NCBI RefSeq assembly: GCF_028768465.1
Contig: NZ_CP118225.1
Coordinates: 558,001-622,000 of the forward strand
Direction of reading: 5' to 3'
Source: Rhodopirellula sp. P2
Lineage (GTDB): Bacteria > Planctomycetota > Planctomycetia > Pirellulales > Pirellulaceae
Length of the DNA: 64,000 bases
How positions within the stretch are numbered: the stretch's first letter is position 1; the number at the start of each line of letters is the position of its first letter. The translations under genes and the position numbers were made by a program. The notes beneath the pieces are model-generated. The model searched no databases, was not told the origin of the DNA, and saw nothing but the letters and a program-made list of their open reading frames with translations. Below, piece by piece: positions 8,026-24,841 of the stretch.

Positions 8026-8060
8026 GCAAGGCAGCGGCAACAAACCAATTGCCCAGCGAT

Positions 8061-8831
8061 CTATCTGTTACGCAAGTACCACTCTCCTTCCTCAATCTCT
8101 TCCCCGTACCAGTAGAACTGTGTTTTGATGCGGAGATCTGGTTTCCGGATCGTCACTTCCCATGCACCATGTGGTCGGCCGGTCCCGGCCATTGGTCCCT
8201 CCTCGGAAACGACTGGCAGCCCCTGTCTCGCATCATTCTCGAAGATGTCGAGGTCCCGGTACACAAGATTGCCTCCCCACCTTGAATAGGTGTCCCTGAA
8301 GCGGACATTATCATTGTGCCATGTACGTTCGTAGGTGTCGAAATACCCCCAAGCAACCACTGCAGCCAGTGTGAGCAAGACGCCGATCCATTTGGCTTTT
8401 CGAATGCCAGAACGACGTGCAAAGATGACAGTGCCCCCAGCGCCAGCAAGTGCGATAGACGGATAGCAATAGAGCGGCAAATCTTGCGAATCAGCAATCG
8501 AAAAGAACAACCACCCAAAAAACCCGACGCCGACTGCGAAACCTGGCCAGACCGTCGCCAGGAACACGTTGAATTCATTGTTCGCCGCGGGATCCTCGAT
8601 GGGTTCCGCATCCCAATCCGCTGGCCCGTTCGTTTGCAAACCTTGATTCACACCAGGTTGAGGTTCAACGTCTGGTTCAGGTGCAATTAGCGGCGACGCA
8701 TCCGGTTTGCGAAGACGCAGCAAATCCGAACACCTCGGACACTTGACTACCGATCCGGCTTTGGCAACTGGATACCGTAACGTTCTGCCGCACGTTGAAC
8801 ATTGCATTCTGGCCGTGGCGGAACTCGTCAT
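8061..8831 (-). CDS. Zinc-ribbon membrane protein, 256 aa
   Basis: The N-terminus carries CSTCG and CPRCS pairs 17 residues apart, a zinc ribbon of the kind often placed before membrane segments in planctomycete proteins. A Pro/Glu-rich linker follows. About three hydrophobic segments come next (FNVFLATVWPGFAVGVGFFG, LYCYPSIALAGAGGTVIFA and WIGVLLTLAAVVAWG). A polar C-terminal domain of about 90 residues with many aromatics completes it. Function unknown. It is the only minus-strand gene in the left half of the island apart from the IS, and is probably a separately expressed cargo gene. Confidence 0.65.
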   Translation of the reverse strand: MTSSATARMQCSTCGRTLRYPVAKAGSVVKCPRCSDLLRLRKPDASPLIAPEPDVEPQPGVNQGLQTNGPADWDAEPIEDPAANNEFNVFLATVWPGFAVGVGFFGWLFFSIADSQDLPLYCYPSIALAGAGGTVIFARRSGIRKAKWIGVLLTLAAVVAWGYFDTYERTWHNDNVRFRDTYSRWGGNLVYRDLDIFENDARQGLPVVSEEGPMAGTGRPHGAWEVTIRKPDLRIKTQFYWYGEEIEEGEWYLRNR

Positions 8832-9151
8832 TTAGTGGATACTCCTCGTTGTTCAAACTCAGCTGACGCCGATCCGCGAATGAACAGATTTCTAGCCGTA
8901 GCTTGGGATAGACAAACCGACCACTCGACTGAGATCGCTAGCACGAGATCCCCCAAAACCAGGTCAGAACTGCCAGCCCCTCTCTCGTCTTGCATGTCGA
9001 CGCCATCCTGATCAAAATGAACCCCCCGTTCAATAACAGGCACCACATTTTCGCTGCACGATGCGTCGAAGCTGGGTGTCTGCAAGTTCAGTAGAGTCCT
9101 CGTCCAGAGCATCCGGGCGCACAAATCACCGCGGACGATTGAGACGCATTC
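8832..9151. other. Intergenic region upstream of hsdR
   Basis: About 320 bases between two divergent genes, so promoters for both should lie here. No clear -35/-10 pair, repeat or RNA was recognised. Confidence 0.4.
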
Positions 9152-12100
9152 TTGGGACAAGGCGACACACCAAAAGATCATCCAGGAAACTTCTGGTTCC
9201 TCGAAGGCTACCAGCCTGTGTTGCTCGCGCACGCACTGCGAGCCGAACGGTACGTCTTCGATGACCCGAACACCGCCTTGGTCAAGCTGCGGCAGCTTGC
9301 TGAATTCTTCGCTCGCGAAGTCGCTGCTGAACTTGGCATCGCCTCCGGATCGCAAGAAGACTTTGTCAACGTTGAACGTCGACTGCGTGACAGTGGAATC
9401 CTGAACCAACAGCTTCGCGATGTGATGCGCACGGTTCGACAAAAGGGCAACTCCGCCGCTCATTCGCTGGCAGGAGAAAGGCGAGACGCGCTGCATTGCC
9501 TGAAACTCGTTCGGCAACTTGCGATCTGGTTCCATAAAACAGTTCGCGGTGCAAACAACTTCCACGCGGGCCCATTCGTCCCTCCAGCTGATCCCGGCCA
9601 GGGAGATAAACAACTCTCCGAAGAACTGGCGAGACTTCGAGAGACAGTCGAAAAGCAGCAGGCCGAATTGGATGCCGCCAAGGCGGAGTCAGAGAAACTC
9701 GGCGACGTCGTTCGTGATCGCCAATCTGCTTACGAACTAGCCAAAGGCAACGAACAGGCAGCCATGGAGCTTGCCGCCGAAACCGAAGAGACGCTGCAAA
9801 AAAGGATCGAAGAATACGAAAGATTGCTCAGCGAGACCGCTGCCAAGAACGCGGATCAGTCAGCCGAAGCTCGCGAAGACATCATCGAAGCCTCGCAGAA
9901 AGCGGCCCAAGAGATCGACCTAGACGAATTCGACACACGCAAGCTGATTGATCAGCAATTGCGTGATGCCGGATGGGAAGCCGACACCTCAGAACTTCGA
10001 CATTCCAACGGAACACGTCCACAAAAAGGGCGAAACATGGCCATCGCGGAAGTCCCAACCGACGATGGAATTGCTGACTATGTTTTATTCACCGGCCTCA
10101 CGCCAATCGCGACAGTCGAAGCCAAACGAAAACGACGCAATGCCCGGTCGGCAATCGATCAGGCACAACGGTACTCCAAGTCATTCCGGATGGCCTCGGA
10201 CTACGTTGAGAACGGGGGTCCGTGGGGCAAGTACAGCGTTCCGTTTGTCTTCTCTACCAACGGCACCCCGTTTCATCGACAACTCATCGATCAAAGTGGA
10301 ATTTGGTTTCGGGACGTACGAGTCGACACCAATCATCCACGTGCGTTGACCGGATGGTACACACCGGAAGGCTTGTTGGATCTGCTCAAGCTCGACATTC
10401 CCGCGGCCAATGCAACGCTGAAGACCCAACCACGAGACTACCTGCCGCTCCGTTACTACCAGCGAGATGCCATTGAGGCGGTTGAAAAAGCCATCGCCAA
10501 AGACCAAACCGAGATTTTGCTCGCGATGGCCACGGGAACCGGCAAGACACGCACGGCAATTTGCTTGCTGTATCGCCTGATCAAAGCCAGCCGGTTCAAT
10601 CGCATTCTGTTTGTCGTGGATCGTCGATCCCTCGGCGAGCAAGCATTCGATGCGTTCAAAGACGTCAAACTCGAACAGAACCAGTCGTTCCCTGAGATCT
10701 ACGACGTCAAGGAACTCGGCGACGTGAAGCCAGACCGGGAAACGAAGCTTCACCTGTGCACGATTCAGTCGATGGTCAAACGAGTGGTTGACCAGGACAG
10801 CAATACCGAACCGTACCCCGTCGACCAATACGATTGCATCGTCATCGACGAATGTCACCGCGGCTACACGCTCGACCGAGACATGAGTGAAGAGGAACTC
10901 GGCTATCGAGATCAACTCGATTACGTCTCCAAATACCGCCGAGTGCTGGATCATTTCGATGCCGTCCGGATCGGATTGACCGCCACCCCCGCTCTTCACA
11001 CGACTGAGATCTTCGGCAGCCCAGTCTATCAGTACAGCTATCGGCAAGCAGTGATCGACAACAACTTGGTCGACCACGAACCACCGTTCATCATTCGCAC
11101 GGAACTTTCCGAGAGCGGAATGCACTGGGATGCAGGTGAGACGGTGAAATACTTCGACACCGTCACGAAGAGCATCGCTGACGAGACGACACCGGATGAG
11201 ATCGACATCGAAATCGATGGGTTCAACCGTCTCGCGATCACCGAGAGCTTCAATCAGGTCGTATGCGACGTCCTCGCCCAGCAAATCGATCACGCACAAC
11301 CTGGCAAGACGTTGATTTTCTGCGTTCGCGACACTCATGCGGACATGGTCGTGCGTTTACTGACGGCAGCGATTGAGCAACGACACGGACCACAACCACA
11401 CGACACCGTCAAAAAGATCACCGGCGACATCGAACGCACTTCGGAAGCCATCCGCCGATTCAAAAATGAATCCATTCCCAAATACGTCGTCACAGTCGAT
11501 CTGCTGACGACGGGAATCGATGTCCCTGAAATCACCAACGTCGTGTTCCTGCGACGGACGAAAAGCCGCATCCTGTTCGATCAAATGATCGGTCGTGCGA
11601 CTCGACTCTGCAAAGACTTGTTTTTCGATGGCGAAGACAAGGAGTACTTCCACATCTACGACGCGGTCGGCGTCTACGAAGCCCTGCAAGAGCACACCGA
11701 CATGAAACCGGTGGTGGCCAAGCCATTCACGAAGTTCAAAAAGCTCGTCGAACTCTTCCAAAACAACTCAGATCCGGACGCACGTGCGGACATCCGGCAA
11801 CAACTCGTCGCCAAACTGCGACGCAAAACACCTTCCATCCATAAAAACTGGCTCGACACCTTTGAAATTCTCGCGGGCGACACGCCCGAGGCGATCTCCG
11901 ATTTATGGGCACGTTCCTCCGATGATGAACTCCAACAATGGTTCACGGATCACGCGGCTCTGATCACTGAATTGGATCAACGGAAGTCAGACGGCTCGAT
12001 CATCATTTCGGAACATGCTGATGCGCTGGTAGGCATCGAGCGTGGATACGGTGGCAACCAGAAACCAGAGGATTACCTCGAATCGTTCCGCCGATTCCTT

Positions 12101-12568
12101 GTTGAGCACAAAACCGACATCCCAGCTCTAGTCCTCGTGACCACACGCCCACGCGATCTCACCCGAAAAGATCTCAAAGAACTGCAACTGCAACTTGAGC
12201 AACACGGATTCAACGAAACCGCCATCAAGTCCGCCGTCAAAGACACAACCAACCAAGATATCGCAGCGAGCATTCTCGGGTTCGTTCGCCATGCCATGCT
12301 CAACGAACCGTTGCTTCCCTACGAAGAACGGGTCGACGAAGCGATGCGATCCATCCTGACCAGCCAAAAGTGGCAACCGCAGCAAAGAAAGTGGCTAGAA
12401 CGAATCGGCAAGCAAATCAAGGAAAACGTGGTCATCGATCGTGACCTCTTCGAAGTCGGCGCCTTCCAGGACCACGGTGGTTTTGTGAAGATCGACAAAG
12501 TTTTCGATGGTCGCCTAAACGAAGTCATGCAGTCGATCATCACCAGCATCTGGCAAACGGCCACTTAA
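9152..12568 (+). CDS. hsdR: Type I restriction enzyme, R subunit
   Basis: The ATP-driven translocase and nuclease subunit, 1138 aa. The N-terminal part resembles the DUF4145-type region of EcoEI-like R subunits and is followed by a long coiled coil (about residues 155-255). A PD-(D/E)XK nuclease follows (DYVLFTGLTPIATVEAK). Helicase motifs come next: Walker A ATGTGKTRT near 465, DEAH-type box VIDECHRGY near 570, LTATP near 610, and motif VI QMIGRATRLC near 815. An EcoEI-type C-terminal domain ends it. The frame has a stop just upstream, so TTG 9152 is the only start that keeps the full N-terminus. It is 21 bases upstream of hsdM and forms an operon with hsdM, hsdS and the ATPase/HNH pair. Confidence 0.94.
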   Translation: MGQGDTPKDHPGNFWFLEGYQPVLLAHALRAERYVFDDPNTALVKLRQLAEFFAREVAAELGIASGSQEDFVNVERRLRDSGILNQQLRDVMRTVRQKGNSAAHSLAGERRDALHCLKLVRQLAIWFHKTVRGANNFHAGPFVPPADPGQGDKQLSEELARLRETVEKQQAELDAAKAESEKLGDVVRDRQSAYELAKGNEQAAMELAAETEETLQKRIEEYERLLSETAAKNADQSAEAREDIIEASQKAAQEIDLDEFDTRKLIDQQLRDAGWEADTSELRHSNGTRPQKGRNMAIAEVPTDDGIADYVLFTGLTPIATVEAKRKRRNARSAIDQAQRYSKSFRMASDYVENGGPWGKYSVPFVFSTNGTPFHRQLIDQSGIWFRDVRVDTNHPRALTGWYTPEGLLDLLKLDIPAANATLKTQPRDYLPLRYYQRDAIEAVEKAIAKDQTEILLAMATGTGKTRTAICLLYRLIKASRFNRILFVVDRRSLGEQAFDAFKDVKLEQNQSFPEIYDVKELGDVKPDRETKLHLCTIQSMVKRVVDQDSNTEPYPVDQYDCIVIDECHRGYTLDRDMSEEELGYRDQLDYVSKYRRVLDHFDAVRIGLTATPALHTTEIFGSPVYQYSYRQAVIDNNLVDHEPPFIIRTELSESGMHWDAGETVKYFDTVTKSIADETTPDEIDIEIDGFNRLAITESFNQVVCDVLAQQIDHAQPGKTLIFCVRDTHADMVVRLLTAAIEQRHGPQPHDTVKKITGDIERTSEAIRRFKNESIPKYVVTVDLLTTGIDVPEITNVVFLRRTKSRILFDQMIGRATRLCKDLFFDGEDKEYFHIYDAVGVYEALQEHTDMKPVVAKPFTKFKKLVELFQNNSDPDARADIRQQLVAKLRRKTPSIHKNWLDTFEILAGDTPEAISDLWARSSDDELQQWFTDHAALITELDQRKSDGSIIISEHADALVGIERGYGGNQKPEDYLESFRRFLVEHKTDIPALVLVTTRPRDLTRKDLKELQLQLEQHGFNETAIKSAVKDTTNQDIAASILGFVRHAMLNEPLLPYEERVDEAMRSILTSQKWQPQQRKWLERIGKQIKENVVIDRDLFEVGAFQDHGGFVKIDKVFDGRLNEVMQSIITSIWQTAT

Positions 12569-12589
12569 TCGTTCAGGACGAACCAATTC

Positions 12590-14113
12590 ATGAATACCAA
12601 CGACATCGTTGCCAAACTCTGGTCTCTCTGTCACGTCCTGCGTGATGACGGTATCACCTACCAAGACTACGTCAACGAACTCAGTTTCCTGCTCTTCCTG
12701 AAGATGATGCAGGAAACCGGCCAAGAATCCGAGCTCCCCGACGGGTATCGCTGGAGCGATCTCGAAAGCAAGGACGGTGTCGACCAACTCGCCTTCTACC
12801 GGGCGATGTTGGTTCACCTCGGCACCGAAGGCAGCCCGCGAGTGCAGAGTGTTTTCGCTGACGCAAACACCTCGCTTCGTCAACCCAAGAACCTTTCCAA
12901 ACTCGTCCAGGATCTCGACGAACTGGATTGGTACGTCGCTCGAGAAGAAGGGCTCGGCGACATGTACGAAGGTTTGCTCGAGCGGAACGCCAGCGAAAAG
13001 AAGTCCGGCGCCGGTCAGTACTTCACGCCACGTCCGTTGATCGAATGCATGGTCAATTGCATCCGTCCTCAACCAGGCGAGGTCATCCAGGATCCTGCGG
13101 CTGGCACCGGTGGCTTCTTGATCGCCGCTCACCAATACATCAGCAACCAAACCGACGACCTGTTCGACCTCGATGCCGACGAACAAGTCTTTCAAAAGCA
13201 GCAAGCGTATCATGCCGTTGAACTCGTGCCTGATACGCATCGACTGTTGGTGATGAACTGCATGTTGCACGGCGTCGGTGGGCATTTGGCCAGCGGAGAT
13301 TCCATGGGCAGCATCGGCCAGAACCTGCCCAACGCCGATGTGATCCTGACCAACCCTCCGTTTGGCACCAAACGCGGCGGAGGCAAACCCACCCGAGACG
13401 ATTTCACATTCGTCACCGGCAACAAACAGCTCGCGTTCCTGCAGCACATCTATCGCGGTCTGAAACCCGGCGGTCGAGCAGCCGTCGTCTTGCCCGACAA
13501 CGTGCTGTTCGAAGAAGGCGTCGGCACGCGCATCCGCGCTGACCTGATGGACAAGTGCAACTTGCACACGATCCTCAGGCTGCCCACGGGCATCTTCTAC
13601 GCACAGGGCGTGAAGACCAACGTGCTGTTCTTCACACGTGGCAAAACAGACACTGGCAATACCAAACAAACGTGGGTCTATGACCTGCGGACGAACATGC
13701 CCTCCTTCGGAGTCCGCACGCCGCTGACGCACGGTCACTTCGCCGAGTTCGAGAAGTGCTACGGTAAGAAAGCCGACGGCACCAGCAAGCGGACCGAGAA
13801 GACCGGCGGCAAGAAAACCTGTCCCGCCCTCTATGAAGACGCTACCGTTTACGAAGGTGAGGAGAGCCGCTTTCGGATCTTTTCGCGAGACTTCGTGCGT
13901 GAGCGAGGCGACAACCTCGACATCAGTTGGCTGAAGGACGATAGCGCCGGTGGCAGCGGCAGTGAGCTTGCGGAGCCGGACGAGATCGCGGCGATGATCC
14001 GCGAGCGTCTGGGCGAGGCGCTTGCCGAGATGGACGCGCTTGCCGAGCTGCTGGAACCGGCAATCCTCGTCACGAGTGACGTTGAAGGCGTCGGAGCTGA
14101 GGTGCGAGAATGA
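12590..14113 (+). CDS. hsdM: Type I DNA methyltransferase, M subunit
   Basis: An N6-adenine methyltransferase subunit of 507 aa. The N-terminal HsdM helical domain is clear (IVAKLWSLCHVLRDDGITY). Motif I is DPAAGTGGF at about residue 170 and motif IV NPPFG is at about residue 255. The C-terminus ends in an acidic helical region that contacts HsdS in this family. It overlaps hsdS by 4 bases (ATGA). A diverged, frameshifted copy of its C-terminal third lies at 25079-25400. Confidence 0.95.
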   Translation: MNTNDIVAKLWSLCHVLRDDGITYQDYVNELSFLLFLKMMQETGQESELPDGYRWSDLESKDGVDQLAFYRAMLVHLGTEGSPRVQSVFADANTSLRQPKNLSKLVQDLDELDWYVAREEGLGDMYEGLLERNASEKKSGAGQYFTPRPLIECMVNCIRPQPGEVIQDPAAGTGGFLIAAHQYISNQTDDLFDLDADEQVFQKQQAYHAVELVPDTHRLLVMNCMLHGVGGHLASGDSMGSIGQNLPNADVILTNPPFGTKRGGGKPTRDDFTFVTGNKQLAFLQHIYRGLKPGGRAAVVLPDNVLFEEGVGTRIRADLMDKCNLHTILRLPTGIFYAQGVKTNVLFFTRGKTDTGNTKQTWVYDLRTNMPSFGVRTPLTHGHFAEFEKCYGKKADGTSKRTEKTGGKKTCPALYEDATVYEGEESRFRIFSRDFVRERGDNLDISWLKDDSAGGSGSELAEPDEIAAMIRERLGEALAEMDALAELLEPAILVTSDVEGVGAEVRE

Positions 14114-15942
14114 GCCGCCCACAAGATGCCATCGTCAAGTTGTCGCGGGGCGAGTCGGTGGAAGTCGCACAAAAAGACGGCGAGAGTGCCAGTGGAGAAG
14201 CGTTGCCGGAGGGCTGGGCGGACGTTCCGATTGGTGACCTCTGCGACCTCATCAACGGTCGCGCGTTCAAGCCAAAGGAATGGAGTGAGTCAGGGCTTCC
14301 AATCATTCGGATTCAAAACCTCAACAAAGCTGAAGCCAAATACAATCACTTCGACGGCGAGTACGCAGACAAGCACCTTGTACGGCCCGGCGAGCTTCTT
14401 TTCGCTTGGTCAGGCACACCGGGCACTTCGTTCGGCGCGCACATCTGGAATGGCCCCAAGGCGTTGCTCAATCAGCACATTTTCCGCGTGCTTATTAACG
14501 AAGACGACTTGAACATGACGTTCTTCCGATTTGCGATCAATCACAAGCTCGAAGAGTTGATAGAAAAGGCGCACGGAGGAGTCGGGCTCCGACATGTCAC
14601 GAAGGGCAAGTTTGAAGCAACGGAAGTTCCCCTTCCCCCCAAAGCCGAGCAGTCCCGTATCGTGTCGGCGATCGAGTCGCTTCAGGAGCGTAGTTCGCGT
14701 GCGCGGGTTTTGCTTTCGGAAGTCGGGCCGCTGATCGGTCAGCTTCGTCAGAGTGTGCTGCGCGATGCTTTCAGTGGGAAGCTGACGGCAGACTGGCGTG
14801 AAGCCAACCCGGATGTCGAACCTGCCTCCGAACTGCTGTCACGCATCCGCACCGAGCGAAGAGAACGCTGGCAGTCCGAGCAGCTCGCGAAGTACGAAGC
14901 CAAAGGCAAACAGCCCCCCAAAAACTGGCAGGACAAGTACAAGGAACCGGAGCCGGTTGATGAGTCGGAGTTGCCCGAACTGCCAGACGGCTGGTGCTGG
15001 TGTCAAGTCGGAGACCTCATTGAGTCCTTCGATGCGGGTCGAAGTCCAACGGCATTGTCGCACCCTGCACGAGATGGCGAATCTGGTGTCTTGAAGGTCA
15101 GCGCCGTGACTTGGCGAGAATTCGATCCCAACGCAAACAAAGCGTTGAAGGACGGTGACGAAATCGGAGATACGCCGACGCCACGGAAAGGCGATCTACT
15201 GATTTCCCGTGCGAACACGGTCGAGCTCATCGGTGCGGTGGTGCTCGTCAAGGCAGACTACCCGAACTTAATGCTGTCGGACAAAACACTTCGCATGAAT
15301 CCTGCCTCAAAGGAACTGGTGCCGGAGTATTTGCTCTACGGCTTACGGTCTGAGTCGGTGCGTAAGTTTTTTGAAGACAACGCCACTGGCACAAGCAACT
15401 CGATGCGTAATCTCTCGCAGGGCAAAATCCTGGATGCGCCGATCGCTCTCGCCCCACTTGCCGAACAGCAAGCCGTCGCTGACTTACTTGTCACGAATGA
15501 CGAAGCCTGCACGTCGGTGGCGATCGGTTTAGCCTCAATGGAATCGTCGCTGACGCAACTGGACCAATCCATCCTCTCGAAAGCGTTCCGAGGCGAGTTG
15601 GTCCCGCAGGACCCGCGCGACGAACCGGCCTCCGAACTCCTCGCCCGCATCCGCCATCAGCGGGAAAACGCGGCTGAAACAAGAAAAACGAACAGAAAAA
15701 CAAAGACCACTAGAACCAGAACCACCAAGAGGAAGGCGGCAATGCCGAAAAGCCGATTTGACGACGATGTAAAAAACCAACCATACCTCGCGACTTTCCT
15801 GAAGGAATCAACAAAGAAGTTGACACCGGAAGAGCTCTTCGACGCGGCAGATCTACCTATCACGGACTTCTACAAACAACTCGCTTGGGAAATTGAAAAC
15901 GGCCACATTTCCGATGATGCCAAAAAGCTGGAGGCGTTGTAA
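14110..15942 (+). CDS. hsdS: Type I specificity subunit with C-terminal extension
   Basis: The DNA recognition subunit, 610 aa. Two target recognition domains begin at GWADVPIGDLCDLINGR and GWCWCQVGDLIESFDAG, each followed by a conserved helical spacer (LRQSVLRDAFSGKL and LDQSILSKAFRGEL). The ~95-residue tail is unusual: a Lys/Thr/Arg-rich linker, then a predicted helical module with LTPEELFDAADLPITDFYKQ. This may be an added protein- or DNA-contact domain. Its stop overlaps the ATPase start by one base. A degraded copy of the spacer-plus-tail region follows ptuB at 18418. Confidence 0.93.
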   Translation: MSRPQDAIVKLSRGESVEVAQKDGESASGEALPEGWADVPIGDLCDLINGRAFKPKEWSESGLPIIRIQNLNKAEAKYNHFDGEYADKHLVRPGELLFAWSGTPGTSFGAHIWNGPKALLNQHIFRVLINEDDLNMTFFRFAINHKLEELIEKAHGGVGLRHVTKGKFEATEVPLPPKAEQSRIVSAIESLQERSSRARVLLSEVGPLIGQLRQSVLRDAFSGKLTADWREANPDVEPASELLSRIRTERRERWQSEQLAKYEAKGKQPPKNWQDKYKEPEPVDESELPELPDGWCWCQVGDLIESFDAGRSPTALSHPARDGESGVLKVSAVTWREFDPNANKALKDGDEIGDTPTPRKGDLLISRANTVELIGAVVLVKADYPNLMLSDKTLRMNPASKELVPEYLLYGLRSESVRKFFEDNATGTSNSMRNLSQGKILDAPIALAPLAEQQAVADLLVTNDEACTSVAIGLASMESSLTQLDQSILSKAFRGELVPQDPRDEPASELLARIRHQRENAAETRKTNRKTKTTRTRTTKRKAAMPKSRFDDDVKNQPYLATFLKESTKKLTPEELFDAADLPITDFYKQLAWEIENGHISDDAKKLEAL

Positions 15943-17549
15943 TGCGATTGGATCGCGTCTACATCGACGGTTTCAAGAACCTGAAGGAGGTAAACGTCGA
16001 TTTCGACAAGAATCAGCTCACGACGGTGGTGATAGGCCAAAACGGTGCCGGTAAATCAAATCTGATTGAGGCGATCGTCGAGGTGTTTCGGTCCGTCGAT
16101 CTCAAGGAAAAGACGTACGTTCCTAAGTTCGTCTATGACATTGACTACCGCATCAACGGACAAAGCATCCGCCTATCTAACAAAGGCGGCAAGCAGACGA
16201 TCTTTGCTGGCAAGAGCGTCGAATCGCTGAAGCCGCTGTCACGAAAAGCGTTCGACAACGACAAAGCCAACTATTTTCCTGATCTCGTTTTCGGTTACTA
16301 CTCCGGTGGCAGTCGTCGGCTGGAAAGTCTCTTTGATCGACACCAACGAAAGTACTACGACGCGATCAAGTTGAATGATGACTTGGATGAATGCCGCGAA
16401 GCGCTCGTCAACCGGCGCCTGTTTTATTGTCGTCCGATTCACGGCGTCTTCGCATTGCTCGCTTTCTACGCCTACCCCGCTCCGGCAGTGGCGAACCTGC
16501 TCACGAAGAAGCTGGGAATCACGCAATTTGATTCCGTACTGGCGGTCTTTCGAAAGCCATGGTTTGCCAAAGGGGCAAAGAACGATGCGTTGAACGACGC
16601 TCCGAATTTGTGGGGAGCGAAGGGGCCTGCCGGTTGGTGCGGACGCAGGTTCCGCGACTTGGCCCTTCACCCGCTCGCCTTGATGGATCGTCCCATCGAC
16701 GACTATCGAGATAAGGGCACAGATGAACCACAGTTCGCAGCCTTTTTTCGCGATGCCGGACCACTCAAGGAACTGGCCAACCAGTACGAAGACGATCGCG
16801 ACTTCTTTGCTGCGATCGAAGCGATGGACATCTCCGATCTTATTCGCGATGTGCATTTGTGGGTAGATCGCACGAACAACGACACGGGCGATGTAAGTTT
16901 CAATGACCTCTCCGATGGTGAACGTCAATTGCTAATGGTGCTGGGATTGATTCGCGTATCCCGCGGGCGAAACGCCCTGTTCTTGCTCGATGAACCAGAC
17001 ACTCATCTCAATCCGCATTGGCAATTGACCTACCTCGACTTAATTCAGGAATGGACGGAAGTTGCTTCCGACGAATCCGATTGCCATATCATCCTGACGT
17101 CACACAATCCGCTGACAATTGCAGCCCTCAATCGCGAGGAAGTTCGAGTAATGACCCAGCGAGAAAACGGCACAACAACGGCACAAGCTCCATATACGCA
17201 CCCTCGCGGCTTAGGCTTCACCGCAACACTGACAGAAATTTTTGGCTTGGAATCAACGCTCGACCCAGCCACTCAAGAAGACATCGACACGCGAAACAGC
17301 CTGGCTGCGATTGACAAGCGGACGAAGGGGCAGGAAGAGAGACTCATCGAGATCAATGACGAGCTCAACCGACGAGGTTTCATGTTTGAGGACCGCGAGC
17401 CGCTCTACAACGATTTCCTTAAGTCTTGGCACGACGTTCAGTACGCCAATCGACCTCCAATGACGCCGGACCAACTCAAGACGCGCCGCGAAGCAATGAA
17501 TGACCTCATCAAGAAGCTAATCGCAGAGAAAGCCGAGGACGAGTCATGA
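15942..17549 (+). CDS. ptuA: Septu-like AAA/ABC-type ATPase (PtuA-like)
   Basis: A 535-aa SMC/ABC-like ATPase. Walker A is GQNGAGKSN at about residue 33, the signature motif is LSDGERQLLMVLG near 325, Walker B is ALFLLDEPDTHLNP near 347, and an H-loop-like ILTSHNPLTI follows. Such ATPases pair with HNH nucleases in the Septu defence family and sense or gate nuclease action. Here it overlaps both neighbours (1 base with hsdS, 4 with the nuclease), so the pair is translated with the type I system. Other restriction-linked ATPases with this fold are possible alternatives. Confidence 0.78.
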   Translation: MRLDRVYIDGFKNLKEVNVDFDKNQLTTVVIGQNGAGKSNLIEAIVEVFRSVDLKEKTYVPKFVYDIDYRINGQSIRLSNKGGKQTIFAGKSVESLKPLSRKAFDNDKANYFPDLVFGYYSGGSRRLESLFDRHQRKYYDAIKLNDDLDECREALVNRRLFYCRPIHGVFALLAFYAYPAPAVANLLTKKLGITQFDSVLAVFRKPWFAKGAKNDALNDAPNLWGAKGPAGWCGRRFRDLALHPLALMDRPIDDYRDKGTDEPQFAAFFRDAGPLKELANQYEDDRDFFAAIEAMDISDLIRDVHLWVDRTNNDTGDVSFNDLSDGERQLLMVLGLIRVSRGRNALFLLDEPDTHLNPHWQLTYLDLIQEWTEVASDESDCHIILTSHNPLTIAALNREEVRVMTQRENGTTTAQAPYTHPRGLGFTATLTEIFGLESTLDPATQEDIDTRNSLAAIDKRTKGQEERLIEINDELNRRGFMFEDREPLYNDFLKSWHDVQYANRPPMTPDQLKTRREAMNDLIKKLIAEKAEDES

Positions 17550-18424
17550 TTTATGTTCGTCGCGACAGTTCGATTATTCCCGCCGAAGTCTTGAACAAGG
17601 CAGAAAAGGCTCAGGAAGAACTCGAGAAGATTTGCGATCCAGCAAAGCGTAAAGCGTTCATCAAGAAAAAGTCGGCAATTTGGGGAGCATTCAAAGCATG
17701 TCTCGCCAAGATGTCGCATGGCAAATGCTGGTACTCCGAGAGCGACGATCCTCAGTCGTTCTTCGATGTCGACCATTTTCGCCCAAAAGGAGAAGCGAAA
17801 CGCAGCGACAAACACGTCGACGACTTTGGGTACGACTGGCTGGCGTTCTCTTGGGAGAACTTCCGTTATTCCGCCACAATGTCGAATCGACTGTTAACCA
17901 ACGATGAGACAGGAGTTGTTGACGGAAAAGGAAGTTGGTTTCCTCTGGTCGACGGTAGCCGAAAAGCTCACTGGGGTGATCGTTGTGAAAAGAACGAAAA
18001 ACCCGTTCTGATAGACCCATGCGAAAAAGATGACGTCAAACTATTGGACGTAGATGCAAATGGACGCATTGTCCCAAGCGTATTCGCCGTAGGTACGGCC
18101 GTGCACCGTGCAAAGCGTTCCGCTGAAATATATGGGCTCAACCATCCGAGCATCGTCCGCAAAAGAAAACAACTAATGCGTGAGCTCTCACAATTGCTCG
18201 AAACTCTTGCCGACACACTAGTTGCCGCCAAGGCCAGCAGCACCCCTGACTCAGTCGCCGACACACTCCCAGTAGACAAACAATTAAAGTTCATTGAGTC
18301 GAAGACGAAGCGATCAAGCCCCTACGCTCTTACAGCTCGTTCGTACTTGACAGACAACGGGTACGGACGGCTTTGCGTTTCGCCTGAGGAAGATTGCGAA
18401 TCAATCAAATGCCCCCACCGCTGA
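17546..18424 (+). CDS. ptuB: Septu-like HNH nuclease (PtuB-like)
   Basis: 292 aa. The HNH core is visible as KCWYSES followed by FDVDHFRPKG around residues 60-85, with an Asn/Asp-containing later part (PVLIDPCEKDD). The KCWYSE form replaces the CxYCE form of classical PtuB, so zinc binding may differ. A basic N-terminal helix precedes it. It starts 4 bases inside the ATPase gene. The stop codon falls inside the degraded hsdS tail that follows, so the gene pair was placed exactly between two hsdS 3' ends. Expected role: DNA cleavage during phage attack, controlled by the ATPase. Confidence 0.75.
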   Translation: MIYVRRDSSIIPAEVLNKAEKAQEELEKICDPAKRKAFIKKKSAIWGAFKACLAKMSHGKCWYSESDDPQSFFDVDHFRPKGEAKRSDKHVDDFGYDWLAFSWENFRYSATMSNRLLTNDETGVVDGKGSWFPLVDGSRKAHWGDRCEKNEKPVLIDPCEKDDVKLLDVDANGRIVPSVFAVGTAVHRAKRSAEIYGLNHPSIVRKRKQLMRELSQLLETLADTLVAAKASSTPDSVADTLPVDKQLKFIESKTKRSSPYALTARSYLTDNGYGRLCVSPEEDCESIKCPHR

Positions 18425-18603
18425 TGCAACTAGACCACGCCATCCTCGCGAAAGCGTTCCGTGGCGAGTTGGTCCCGCAGGAACCGAGCGACGAGCCCGC
18501 TTCCGCACCACGCGAGATGCCTAAGCAGCAACGAAAAGGCCACCACGCAAGCAGAAGGCGAACGCGTAGGTACCGAACGACGAATCGACCTCTCATCACC
18601 TAG
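18418..18603 (+). pseudogene. Remnant of an hsdS 3' end
   Basis: Bases 18418-18511 align with hsdS 15547-15640 (LMQLDHAILAKAFRGELVPQ against LTQLDQSILSKAFRGELVPQ). They are followed by a decayed Lys/Arg-rich tail to a TAG at 18601. There is no upstream portion: the sequence joins the last codons of ptuB. It is either the tail of a second specificity gene or of the original hsdS before the ATPase/HNH pair arrived. Confidence 0.8.
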
Positions 18604-18675: not shown

Positions 18676-19506
18676 ATGACCAATTGGACGCCGACTACGA
18701 TAAAACGCAGGATTCCGACGGACATCTCATCGAGCACACGGCCAACACACGTGGTGACGGATCAGGGCAACGCGTACATCAAGTGGCCAAGCCAACGTCG
18801 AAACTCTCAGGGGGCGACCGCACTTGCAAGCGAGCTAATTGGCACCGGTCTCGCGGAGTGGTTCGGACTTCCGACGTTTGAGTATGCGGTTATGCAGGCG
18901 TGCGAGGCTGACGCGTTTCCCGATTCGGACGACGAAAATCTGGTTCCTGTATTTCTGACAAAAGAGGTAGAGGGAGACACTTGGAAAGGCACCACGAAAG
19001 AGCTCAACCAGGTTGAAAACAAGGCGGATATCAGCCGTTTGGTCGTCTTCGACACATTTGCATGCAATTCTGATCGGCACCTGATTTTTGACAATCGCGG
19101 TCGAAAGCGGGAACATCGCAACGACGGAAATGTCTTCCTTAGCCAGGACGCTGCCCCGAAAATGCTGCGTTTGCGGGTGTACGATCACACCCATTGCCAT
19201 TACGCCGTAATCGACGCAAGCGGTATACCCGCAAATCAGAGTAAGATTGAAGATCCAGCCATTTACGGCTTGTTTCCCGAATTCAAAAACTTCCTGGACC
19301 GTGAAGTCGTAAAAGAGGCAGCAGCTAAGCTGCTGAAGCTCGATCTTCCCACGATCACAAATGTCGTCGACGCGGTTCCGGATGAATGGATTCGCCACCC
19401 AGAGTCAAAAGACCGGTGGATGTCGTTCATCCAAGATCGCGCCAGATTTGTCAGCAACCACATCGAAAGCAAAATTTTTCCCCAGGGAGAATTCAGCTAT
19501 GAATAA
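18676..19506 (+). CDS. HipA-like kinase (HipA_2 family)
   Basis: 276 aa. The catalytic loop is recognisable as FDTFACNSDRHLIFDN, the N-x-D-R-H-x-x-N pattern of HipA-type Ser/Thr kinases, and a YDHTHCHY stretch follows as the likely metal-binding segment. It is shorter than classical HipA and lacks its N-terminal subdomain, as in the HipA_2 family. Its stop overlaps the start of the DUF3037 gene by 8 bases (19499-19506), so the two are made together. Homologous pairs are common but poorly understood; a toxin-antitoxin or defence role is an inference. Confidence 0.78.
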   Translation: MTNWTPTTIKRRIPTDISSSTRPTHVVTDQGNAYIKWPSQRRNSQGATALASELIGTGLAEWFGLPTFEYAVMQACEADAFPDSDDENLVPVFLTKEVEGDTWKGTTKELNQVENKADISRLVVFDTFACNSDRHLIFDNRGRKREHRNDGNVFLSQDAAPKMLRLRVYDHTHCHYAVIDASGIPANQSKIEDPAIYGLFPEFKNFLDREVVKEAAAKLLKLDLPTITNVVDAVPDEWIRHPESKDRWMSFIQDRARFVSNHIESKIFPQGEFSYE

Positions 19507-20338
19507 CCCCATCCCCGCCCCACCTACACGTGGCTACTACAGTCTCGTCCAATATTGCCCCGACACTAGCCGGCTGGAAGTCGCCAATATCGGTGTGGTC
19601 CTGTTCTGCGCGGATCACGACTTCCTGCAAGCCCGAATGACATCCAACCACAGTCGCATCAATAAGATGTTTGGGCGAGGCAAGCGGGACCTTGCGCGTT
19701 TGAAGGTGATCAAGGATGGCCTGGAAAGCAAGCTTGAAAGCGGTCGCCGGGATTTACAAGGCCTGGAGCAACTTGAGCGTTTCGCTTCGTTGCAAGTCAA
19801 CAACCTGCAGATGACGAAGTTTATGCCATGCCGGATCACCACTACACCTGCACGTGAACTGCAAGACCTCTTTGACCAGTTGGTGCAACCGGAGTCAGAG
19901 TTGCAGGCAAACTCGCCGTCGGATGACCTGAAATGCCGTATGGACACGATGTTCAATCAACCTGATCTGAGGGGCTTGGTGCGCCGTAACATAACGGTAA
20001 GCGTTCCGATACTGCAACGTGAGCAGGAAGTACCATATGCCTATCAAAATGGTCGCCTTAACCTGATCGCCCCACTGCAATTCCCTAAACGCACCAATTC
20101 AGTTGAAGACAAGGCCGCTCGTTTTGCAGTGGAAGGAAAGTCGCTTTTTGACAATCCACACCCTAAATACGGCGAACTTCAGATGCTGATCGTCGGTGCG
20201 TTTCCGGAGACCAAGAAGTCTGACATCGAGACTGCGCGACGCATCCTTGATTCCCATCAAGTACGTTTAATCACGAGCGATAATCTTGTTGAGCTTGGAG
20301 ACGAGATCCGCAAGCACGGACATCCGTTAGAGGCATAG
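19499..20338 (+). CDS. DUF3037 domain protein
   Basis: 279 aa from ATG 19499. The N-terminal ~130 residues match the DUF3037 pattern, with YYSLVQYCPDTSRLEVANIG at residues 12-31. A long charged helical segment follows, then a C-terminal mixed alpha/beta region with FPETKKSDIETARRILDSH. DUF3037 proteins are typically encoded beside HipA-like kinases, as here. The product could be the kinase substrate, antitoxin or targeting partner; none is established from the sequence. Confidence 0.78.
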   Translation: MNNPIPAPPTRGYYSLVQYCPDTSRLEVANIGVVLFCADHDFLQARMTSNHSRINKMFGRGKRDLARLKVIKDGLESKLESGRRDLQGLEQLERFASLQVNNLQMTKFMPCRITTTPARELQDLFDQLVQPESELQANSPSDDLKCRMDTMFNQPDLRGLVRRNITVSVPILQREQEVPYAYQNGRLNLIAPLQFPKRTNSVEDKAARFAVEGKSLFDNPHPKYGELQMLIVGAFPETKKSDIETARRILDSHQVRLITSDNLVELGDEIRKHGHPLEA

Positions 20339-20524
20339 CTCCCATTTTCCGACAACTTGCTCGCAAACGCGGGATCTCATTTCAGCGTTGGTTCTGACGG
20401 CTTCAATAGCCGGCGGGATTCGTTTAATAAATGCCAACGCAAGCATCCTTGCGAGAGTAATCTCGGGGAGGAACTTGCTTTTTATTCCCCCAATGCAAAC
20501 CCAATACCTCATTCACCCACACCG

Positions 20525-21400
20525 ATGTCGACAGCGACCGCGAAAACTATTCAGATCTATTTGCCGACGGGTGAGCCACGTGGCATCCGGATTGCCGAGA
20601 TCACGACTCGGATCGTGCAGGCGGTACTGATCCCACGTAGTGACCTCACGCTCGGCAAGCTTCGCCCAGAACTCGATCTCCCGGGCGTCTACCTCCTGTT
20701 CGGTGAAGGGGAGGATGAAGCAAAGCCAATCGTCTACATCGGCCAGACCGAGGACGCGAGAAAACGGCTTGATAGCCACAACAAAACAAAGACCTTCTGG
20801 AAGACCGCAATCTTTTGTGTGTCTAAGACCCAGAATTTCACCCAAGCTCACATTCGGTATCTGGAATGGCACGGTATGCAGCAGGCGAAAAAGATTGCCC
20901 GCTACACTCTCGACAACGGGCAGATCCCAGACAATTCGAATTATGTTCCTGAACCAATGGAGGCCGAACTACTCGACGTCTTCGAAACGATCAGCACGCT
21001 TGTCTCGACGCTTGGCTACCCAGTCTTCGAACCGCTGGCCCGCAACATCAACACGGTGCCACGCTTCTTTTGTCGGTCACGAGGATGCGATGCAAGTGGT
21101 GAGCTCGCCGAGGACGGCTTTGTCGTGCGGCAAGGGAGCAAGTCTCGGATTGAACCGACTGCGTCCATGCCCGAATCGATCGGCAATCAACGCAAACGTT
21201 TGCTCGAAGCTGGCATCGTCGCTGAACTAGACGGTGTGTACGTCTACCAACAAGACTATCTGTTCCCATCACCCAGCAATGCGGCCGCGACAGTACTCGG
21301 TGCATCTGCGAATGGCTGGAACGAATGGAAAGATGCTAGCGGACGCACCCTTAGCGAAGTCCATCGTGAAACGGATTCTGAAGAAGCGATTGACGATTGA
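20525..21400 (+). CDS. GIY-YIG nuclease with DUF4357 domain
   Basis: 291 aa from ATG 20525; the frame is open further upstream but homologous sequence begins about here. The GIY-YIG core shows GVYLLFGEGED then IVYIGQTEDARKRL, and a Glu in the later AHIRYLEWHGMQQAKK helix. The C-terminal ~70 residues have the DUF4357 pattern with a late ANGWNEWKDASGRTL motif. GIY-YIG/DUF4357 proteins are common in defence-rich islands. Upstream, 20339-20524 is a 186-base gap that may hold its own promoter. Confidence 0.82.
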   Translation: MSTATAKTIQIYLPTGEPRGIRIAEITTRIVQAVLIPRSDLTLGKLRPELDLPGVYLLFGEGEDEAKPIVYIGQTEDARKRLDSHNKTKTFWKTAIFCVSKTQNFTQAHIRYLEWHGMQQAKKIARYTLDNGQIPDNSNYVPEPMEAELLDVFETISTLVSTLGYPVFEPLARNINTVPRFFCRSRGCDASGELAEDGFVVRQGSKSRIEPTASMPESIGNQRKRLLEAGIVAELDGVYVYQQDYLFPSPSNAAATVLGASANGWNEWKDASGRTLSEVHRETDSEEAIDD

Positions 21401-22390: not shown

Positions 22391-22476
22391 TTAACAAACC
22401 AGTCAGGTTCCAGGGAGCACGACAAGCGGTCGAACTTGAACTGCCGCTTTGAGCCAGTTCACGTCGAACATCCGTT

Positions 22477-24737: not shown

Positions 24738-24784
24738 GCCTCCGAAGCCGAAGGTTGTGGGTTCGAACCCCGCCGGGTGTATTG
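24738..24784 (+). repeat. attR: right 47-bp direct repeat of the island
   Basis: Identical to 72-118. The 5' half of the tRNA is absent here, so it is not a functional tRNA. The sequence just after it (24800-24836) matches 133-169 at 36 of 37 bases, meaning that island left-end sequence continues to the right of attR. Confidence 0.9.
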
Positions 24785-24841
24785 ATGAGATACCTTCTTG
24801 ATTCGTTGACAAAACGATTCCCTGCCGCTGTTGGCAACCGC

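Follow-up and report, generated by a model that had tools for sequence, protein, structure and literature searches.

A stretch of 64,000 nucleotides from Rhodopirellula sp. P2 (contig NZ_CP118225.1, positions 558,001 to 622,000; referred to below as the window) carries a type I restriction-modification operon whose specificity gene, hsdS, is followed by a Septu-like gene pair, ptuA and ptuB, and then by a partial copy of the hsdS tail. This arrangement raises the question of whether the pair was inserted at random behind an ordinary hsdS or is built into the restriction system. The initial annotation of the window did not set the end of hsdS apart. As judged by sequence comparison, the last 66 residues of HsdS belong instead to the Septu module, so that the add-on begins inside hsdS. 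The elements concerned are as follows.

9152 to 12568, forward strand: hsdR, type I restriction subunit of 1138 aa (NF008521, E 0, 1547 bits above cut-off), with the Pfam domains EcoEI_R_C, ResIII and HSDR_N
12590 to 14113, forward strand: hsdM, type I N6-adenine methyltransferase of 507 aa (N6_Mtase, E 2.1e-71; PADLOC MTase_I, 704 bits)
14110 to 15942, forward strand: hsdS, specificity subunit with a C-terminal add-on, 610 aa (Methylase_S; PADLOC Specificity_I, 264 bits)
15742 to 15939, forward strand: fused C-terminal domain of HsdS, 66 aa, a predicted winged helix, with an in-frame ATG at its first codon behind gaggaaggcggca
15942 to 17549, forward strand: ptuA, ABC-type ATPase of 535 aa (PADLOC PDLC00293, 608 bits, residues 1-532)
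17546 to 18424, forward strand: ptuB, HNH nuclease of 292 aa (PADLOC PDLC00343, 317 bits)

The domain at the end of HsdS is 64% identical to the last 66 HsdS residues in Mesorhizobium soli, where ptuA comes next. Loci with a close PtuA relative were catalogued from a tblastn search of plasmids, profile searches of genomes and viral contigs, scans for hsdS tails and a PtuA profile scan of the window's class, with gene calls in the fetched loci made by a simple open-frame script. The catalogue holds 20 loci (the window, L003, L005-L009, L015, L016, L018, L019, L021-L023, L118, L123, L124, L153, L154 and L155). At all 20, hsdS lies directly upstream of ptuA, with gaps of -14 to +22 nt at the 17 loci measured, and the domain is present at the HsdS end (by alignment or by model), fused in frame in every case, from the window's phylum to Vibrio. 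When a model of the domain was trained on 13 loci, none of them originating in the scans of the relatives or the class of the window, the HsdS ends of the seven remaining loci were all recognised (E 7.5e-6 or better). The training loci match this model by construction, so that the evidence there is the alignment, which is weakest for L009.

The association was also seen among 32 HsdS tails found independently of PtuA, some of which are short frames rather than whole hsdS genes. These were taken from 30 loci (52 places listed in a tail-peptide scan) and from tail-DNA matches, L074 and L110 being not assessable. Four carried the domain (the window, G952, G847 and G1048) and all four were followed by ptuA, while the other 28 had neither the domain nor ptuA in the 525-1485 downstream bases examined; excluding the window, this gives 3/3 against 0/28 (p 2.2e-4). 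For G952 and G847 the domain was scored before the downstream genes were viewed, and in G1048 ptuA had already been seen. It should be noted that the slot behind hsdS also holds other genes and that such slots are already known (PMC12255303), as would be expected if an independent Septu system merely occupied a favoured defence-island position and the HsdS end were a neutral tag. This purely genetic linkage is the least probable of the explanations weighed here: the 28 tails that lack both domain and PtuA speak against it, as does a domain that follows PtuAB and not HsdMS.

The latter was apparent from a comparison of pairwise distances at 16 loci, a set that predates the last three loci found and excludes G613 for its broken ptuA. 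Domain distances correlated with those of PtuA (0.43) and PtuB (0.41; both p 0.001, permutation), in contrast to those of HsdM (0.12, p 0.18) and the HsdS core (-0.05, p 0.66). A correlation was also seen between HsdM and the HsdS core (0.60), and none between PtuA and HsdM (0.006). As the divergence of the domain tracks PtuA and PtuB rather than HsdM and the HsdS core, the domain is part of a PtuAB module that moves between HsdMS backgrounds. What the module consists of, how far it is conserved, and that it co-evolves with PtuAB and moves relative to HsdMS are results of the present comparison.

In the window, hsdR, hsdM, hsdS, ptuA and ptuB lie on a single strand, giving a complete type I restriction-modification set within one operon. 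The naming of the pair as Septu-like was borne out, both products matching the PADLOC Septu models over nearly their full length. In PtuA, the Walker A, signature and Walker B residues are invariant in all seven aligned loci, as are D76-H77, N105 and N114 of PtuB. PtuA of the window shares 58% identity with the Mesorhizobium protein and 32-36% with the five others aligned. The proposed gene overlaps were confirmed from the coordinates: ptuA starts within TAATG at 15942 and overlaps the hsdS stop by 1 nt, ptuB starts within ATGA at 17546 and overlaps ptuA by 4 nt, and the ptuB stop (18422-18424) lies within TGATG. Full translational coupling of the operon had also been claimed; this holds for hsdM, hsdS (a further 4-nt overlap), ptuA and ptuB, but not for hsdR, which ends at 12568 and is separated by 21 nt from the hsdM start at 12590.

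AlphaFold2, run on 12 aligned HsdS ends, gave a helix-helix-helix-strand-strand arrangement (mean pLDDT 72, pTM 0.53), and the fold of the domain is likely a winged helix. Its structural matches were mostly winged helices, for example cullin WHB and Rpa2, with the top matches reaching Z 8.8 at an rmsd of 1.6-1.9 over 61-63 residues. Matches at Z 8.0-8.8 aligned 58-66 residues with an rmsd of 1.5-3.7, but top Z values of 7-8 are typically reached when no clear match exists, and Foldseek gave no E better than 0.011. No convincing family was found in Pfam and PDB profile searches with the domain; its top PDB sequence matches were designed repeat proteins, with no stretch passing alone. In PADLOC, some HsdS models match the domain region and one member of the family matches WH_III-A (E 0.001).

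Since the domain is attached to HsdS but occurs and varies together with PtuAB, the simplest reading is that it docks the pair on HsdMS. On balance, PtuAB is probably anchored by this domain to the HsdM2S methyltransferase, as PrrC is to EcoprrI, and would act as its second effector, with HsdR optional. The docking, silencing, trigger and target that we infer would run as follows. The add-on is a three-part Septu module, consisting of the predicted winged-helix domain fused to the HsdS end, PtuA and PtuB, in which the fused domain would hold PtuAB on HsdM2S and the pair would be kept quiet while the complex is intact and the DNA methylated. On contact of the complex with unmodified phage DNA, or when a phage blocks or dismantles it, PtuA would allow PtuB to cleave tRNA or DNA and infection would be aborted, so that PtuAB would serve the methyltransferase and would not merely guard restriction. 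A Septu system of E. coli has been reported to impair infected cells and to cleave tRNA-Tyr upon infection (PMC13096335), and a different Septu has been reported to act on DNA (cited in PMC11555353).

The place of HsdR bears directly on this. Two HsdR models, applied to the whole record, found none for 8 of the 20 loci: four of the five plasmids, the drafts G345 and G613 (the latter being the one with the broken ptuA) and the viral-collection records of L021 and L022. An hsdR accompanies 11 of the 20, at the locus itself in the window, G1048, G952, G847, G1092 (C108) and G999, and in the record for Mesorhizobium (missed by the first model and found by the second), one plasmid, L018, L019 and L023; the second G1092 contig is cut off upstream and was excluded from this judgement. 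These counts suggest that HsdR is optional to the module, and the frequent lack of a detected HsdR favours PtuAB as an effector that serves the methyltransferase complex rather than as a pure restriction guard. Such a guard, in which the complete restriction enzyme including HsdR would bind and silence PtuAB and release it only upon a phage anti-restriction block, has a precedent in PrrC, a latent nuclease described as held by a type I enzyme and freed when a phage protein blocks that enzyme (PMC2610378, PMC3874165). It would also fit the hsdR of the window's operon and of the 11 loci as a whole, but it is considered unlikely in view of the eight loci without a detected HsdR, the two drafts among them.

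Several points weigh against docking on HsdM2S as proposed above. Strain DH10B carries no hsdRMS. A Septu of E. coli is reported to protect this strain with only its own two genes cloned (PMC13096335), so a dependence of PtuAB on HsdMS is not a necessity. HsdR was missed only in plasmids, fragments from a virus collection and drafts, whose hosts or gaps may supply it, and a pure guard role may hold at the 11 loci with hsdR. The structural model of the domain is also of middling confidence, and winged helices are common.

A different role for the domain is raised by a possible start codon within hsdS. At the domain's first codon, the window reads gaggaaggcggcaATG, and an in-frame ATG was found 65-84 codons before the hsdS end at 16 of the 20 loci, against 27% expected (p 1e-6). 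A ribosome-binding match of at least 5 nt precedes 5 of these 16 ATGs and, at other places within hsdS and hsdM, 14 of 282 internal ATGs (p 0.0017); for the ATG of the window the match scores 4. The interval was picked after seeing the data, so that the internal start is only a lead. It would nevertheless suit a domain that is a third Septu subunit or an antitoxin, also made alone from this start and fused to HsdS mainly for co-expression. That reading is thought quite improbable, given that the fusion is in frame at every catalogued locus, that four of the loci lack such an ATG and that the loci are related.

The extent of the searches behind the catalogue was as follows, the genome draws being overlapping samples. 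The tblastn search of 72,556 plasmid records with PtuA (E limit 1e-20) matched five, and in all five hsdS lies just 5' of ptuA and its product ends in a similar domain. Scans for PtuA matched 1 of 294 genomes of the window's phylum with a single-sequence query and 4 of 398 genomes of the phylum of Mesorhizobium with a profile, one of the four being the remote locus L017. The profile scan of the window's class matched 23 of 387 genomes, with eight strong matches in seven genomes and then a gap to weak ATPases. Seven of the eight strong matches could be assessed and all seven have a domain-bearing hsdS upstream, while among 13 weak-match loci any HsdS homology was seen in one (L143), at its edge. 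The PtuA scan of phage records gave no matches, and in Viral_contigs a single protein query found no PtuA relatives where a profile found 20 loci. A search of E. coli genomes matched 119 of 5,426; among the 30 matches listed, only 264 bases of the hsdS part were covered and none covered 80% of the query.

Left out of the catalogue were L020, which duplicates L019, G1104 (L156), where the contig end cuts off the hsdS side, the 11 short or weak matches L027-L037 from the profile search of Viral_contigs, and the remote ATPases of L017, L024, L025 and L026, which also lie in hsd loci. The remote ATPase gene stands one gene after hsdS in L017 and L024, directly after it in L025 and behind an unidentified frame in L026, and the HsdS of L017 and L024 is without the domain. 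It may be that the slot serves other ATPase families too.

With the composition of the add-on described, the repeated hsdS tail can be considered. Its elements are as follows.

15548 to 15654, forward strand: hsdS tail copy A, junction segment whose DNA is almost the same as in several other genomes
18419 to 18508, forward strand: hsdS tail copy B, an orphan relic, 87% identical to copy A and degraded beyond 18508
18424 to 18603, forward strand: small open frame of 59 codons over the relic, with no evidence of being a gene

The direct repeat (15548-15637 against 18419-18508, 87% over 90 nt, ungapped) is the longest and clearest of the region. In a DNA search of the 7.29-Mb genome it was found at these two places only (the second at E 2.3e-24), and at the protein level the sole further place was the central repeat of hsdS itself (E 6e-4). 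Copy B begins at the end of ptuB and encodes a recognisable HsdS tail, MQLDHAILAKAFRGELVPQEPSDEPAS. The initial annotation was therefore right that the ptuB stop lies inside a degraded copy of the hsdS tail, and its arrangement of a pair between hsdS and a copy of its own tail stands. The pair is part of a conserved composite and was not inserted at random. The tail copy is not supported as a signature of ptuAB insertion. At all 19 other catalogued loci ptuAB follows hsdS immediately, and the available sequence beyond ptuB gave no tail copy at any of them; one opposite-strand tail match in G952 (E 0.004) was taken as chance. This is an outcome that the initial annotation had named as refuting its reading. 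A tail copy as a general mark of PtuAB insertion was thus rejected.

A view of the same locus without the module is given by G694, a genome of the same genus, which aligns to the window at 92% from 8032 to 15653 (hsdR, hsdM and hsdS). The match breaks off at the end of the hsdS tail and restarts at 22448, with an extra short match between the G694 hsdS tail and copy B of the window. At 550 residues, the G694 HsdS stops shortly beyond the tail, and the HsdS end and ptuAB of the window are jointly absent there. Where the window has ptuAB, G694 has a gene that overlaps the hsdS stop at its start and encodes 195 residues; next come a gene for 620 residues, weakly matching STAND NTPases, and another long frame.

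Tail DNA proved to be far more conserved than its surroundings in some pairs of genomes. Between the window and G868, of another family in the same class, it is 97% identical. At four-fold sites, 17 of 19 are identical in the tail against 90 of 188 in hsdM for G868 (p 3.6e-4), and 17 of 20 against 87 of 186 for G696 (p 9e-4), in Fisher tests that treat the sites as independent. No clear excess was seen in G743 (5/16 against 80/175 in hsdM) or G787 (10/17 against 83/187), and there was none in the same-genus G694 (16/20 against 198/239). In G1048, of another genus, 96 of 96 tail bases are identical to the window at an HsdM protein identity of 77.5%, and behind this identical tail stand its own version of the domain and a PtuA only 31% identical to that of the window.

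G868 carries hsdM and hsdS, then a gene of 256 residues for which Pfam and PADLOC gave no match. An orphan hsdS tail comes next, with 93% identity across 118 bp, and after it a HipA-like gene and a DUF3037 gene, the same pair that follows copy B in the window. This array is the one parallel for hsdS followed by another gene and a partial tail, an arrangement that the initial annotation had proposed to search for; it was not found at the 19 other PtuAB loci in the sequence examined. The suggestion that the hsdS 3' end is a junction for differing modules is supported, with G694 diverging at 15653 into other genes and G868 and G1048 carrying other cargo. The position between hsdS and hsdR has also been described as a potential recombination hotspot for defence genes (PMC12255303). 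Recombination within the hsdS tail that swaps the cargo would explain both the conservation of the tail and the patterns of orphan tails, and one such event would explain the copy in the window as its local scar. Copy B is about 86% identical to copy A and equally distant from the tails of G694, G868 and G1048 (79 bases). Seven of its 12 differences from copy A are at third codon positions, which fits a diverged allele, and for the orphan tail of G868 the figure is two of eight, which fits the decay of a recent duplicate; both rest on small numbers.

The two genes that follow copy B in the window are as follows.

18676 to 19506, forward strand: HipA-like kinase gene, 3' of the operon (HipA_2, E 2.5e-8)
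19499 to 20338, forward strand: DUF3037 gene, partner of the HipA-like gene (DUF3037, E 4.3e-15; PADLOC PDC-M66B)

HipA-like and DUF3037 genes were also found directly after ptuB in G1092 (L154, 5016-6754), with no tail between, and the pair may be a frequent further add-on. A general unit of hsdS tail and HipA was tried and rejected, as none of six other HipA loci from the scan of relatives had a tail match better than E 0.1. A GIY-YIG/DUF4357-type gene lies further 3' of the operon (20357-21400), and a gene of similar appearance, by eye, stands between hsdM and hsdS in Mesorhizobium soli (L003, 3426-4349).

Other HsdS proteins with long, differing C-terminal ends before other cargo were noted at L061, L075, L078, L091 and L098, the cargo including an HNH gene (L061) and an LmuB-like gene (L098); the ends of L078 and L091 are alike by eye. 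There was also an orphan hsdS tail fragment on a 3.8-kb contig of G950 (L103, 2423-2503, within a 61-codon frame), a contig on which no hsdS was found.

At the start of the window there is a tRNA-Arg gene (42-115) with a gene of the phage integrase family right behind it (180-1469), and a 99-bp, 91% copy of positions 72-169, comprising the 3' part of the tRNA and adjoining bases, recurs 24.7 kb away at 24738-24836. These features make the restriction-Septu operon look like cargo carried by a tRNA-Arg integrative island. Near the G868 array there is a gene (L094, reverse complement, 12590-13780) for an integrase-like protein, with 41.5% identity to that of the window over 419 aligned positions.

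The locus was compared with known systems that combine similar parts. It resembles Septu type I in its matches to the PtuA and PtuB models, its gene order and its overlap, and differs in that loci of the window's type sit behind hsdS in 20 of 20 cases, with the fused HsdS domain. With PrrC/EcoprrI it shares an ABC-type ATPase nuclease gene beside hsdS in an hsd operon (in one cloned case the order is HsdR, HsdS, PrrC, HsdM; PMC11555353) and the proposed silencing by a type I complex. PrrC is, however, a single protein with an anticodon nuclease, whereas the window encodes two proteins, one of them an HNH nuclease; the passages cited here describe no HsdS domain for PrrC, and HsdR is often not found with PtuAB. 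No PrrC anticodon nuclease domain was found among the Pfam families (eight for PtuA, none for PtuB) or among the PADLOC and NCBIfam matches listed for PtuA.

In retrons of type I-A (Septu type II), too, a partner module keeps PtuAB in check and determines the trigger, and in retron-Eco7 PtuAB is described as a toxin restrained by the reverse transcriptase and msDNA (PMC11555353). There the reverse transcriptase precedes ptuA, whereas in the window hsdS does and the proposed partner is HsdMS. No reverse transcriptase family was found among the operon products in Pfam or among the NCBIfam matches listed, and the retron equivalogs scored far below their cut-offs (NF041760 for PtuA, 63.6 of 500 bits; NF041761 for PtuB, 37.5 of 150 bits). 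DarTG2 and an ATPase pair have been reported as defence genes in the same kind of slot, between hsdS and hsdR, with no fused HsdS domain in the account given there (PMC12255303). MADS likewise brings together a methyltransferase, an HsdS-like protein and a PtuA-like ATPase, and all three matched weakly and far below cut-off (MAD2, 102.8 of 720 bits; MAD3, 29.1 of 420; MAD5, 61 of 400); the window's proteins score far better to the type I and PtuA models. A match to TIGR04435, 'restriction system-associated AAA family ATPase', was also below cut-off, and its name shows an earlier link of related ATPases to restriction systems. No description of the fused HsdS domain with PtuAB was found in the titles and abstracts of the literature searched, a scope that excluded most subscription journals and preprints.

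A wider scheme can be put forward only tentatively, with the chances against it as a whole. Type I methyltransferases might act as interchangeable, sequence-specific sensors for effectors other than HsdR, with the HsdS end as a socket, a C-terminal plug peculiar to each cargo and the hsdS tail of about 100 bp as the recombination seam at which cargo is exchanged; the Septu plug might also be translated separately from the internal start, setting the ratio of docked to free pair. What the finding provides is a clade of PtuAB genetically tied to a methyltransferase with a defined recognition site, and with it a switch that can be tested, in the form of methylation state or inhibition of the complex. 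If the proposed mechanism is true, the principle known from PrrC would extend to another nuclease pair and HsdS would gain a second job as a docking platform, and a seam in the hsdS tail would account for a restriction operon that exchanges its added weapon and keeps its core.

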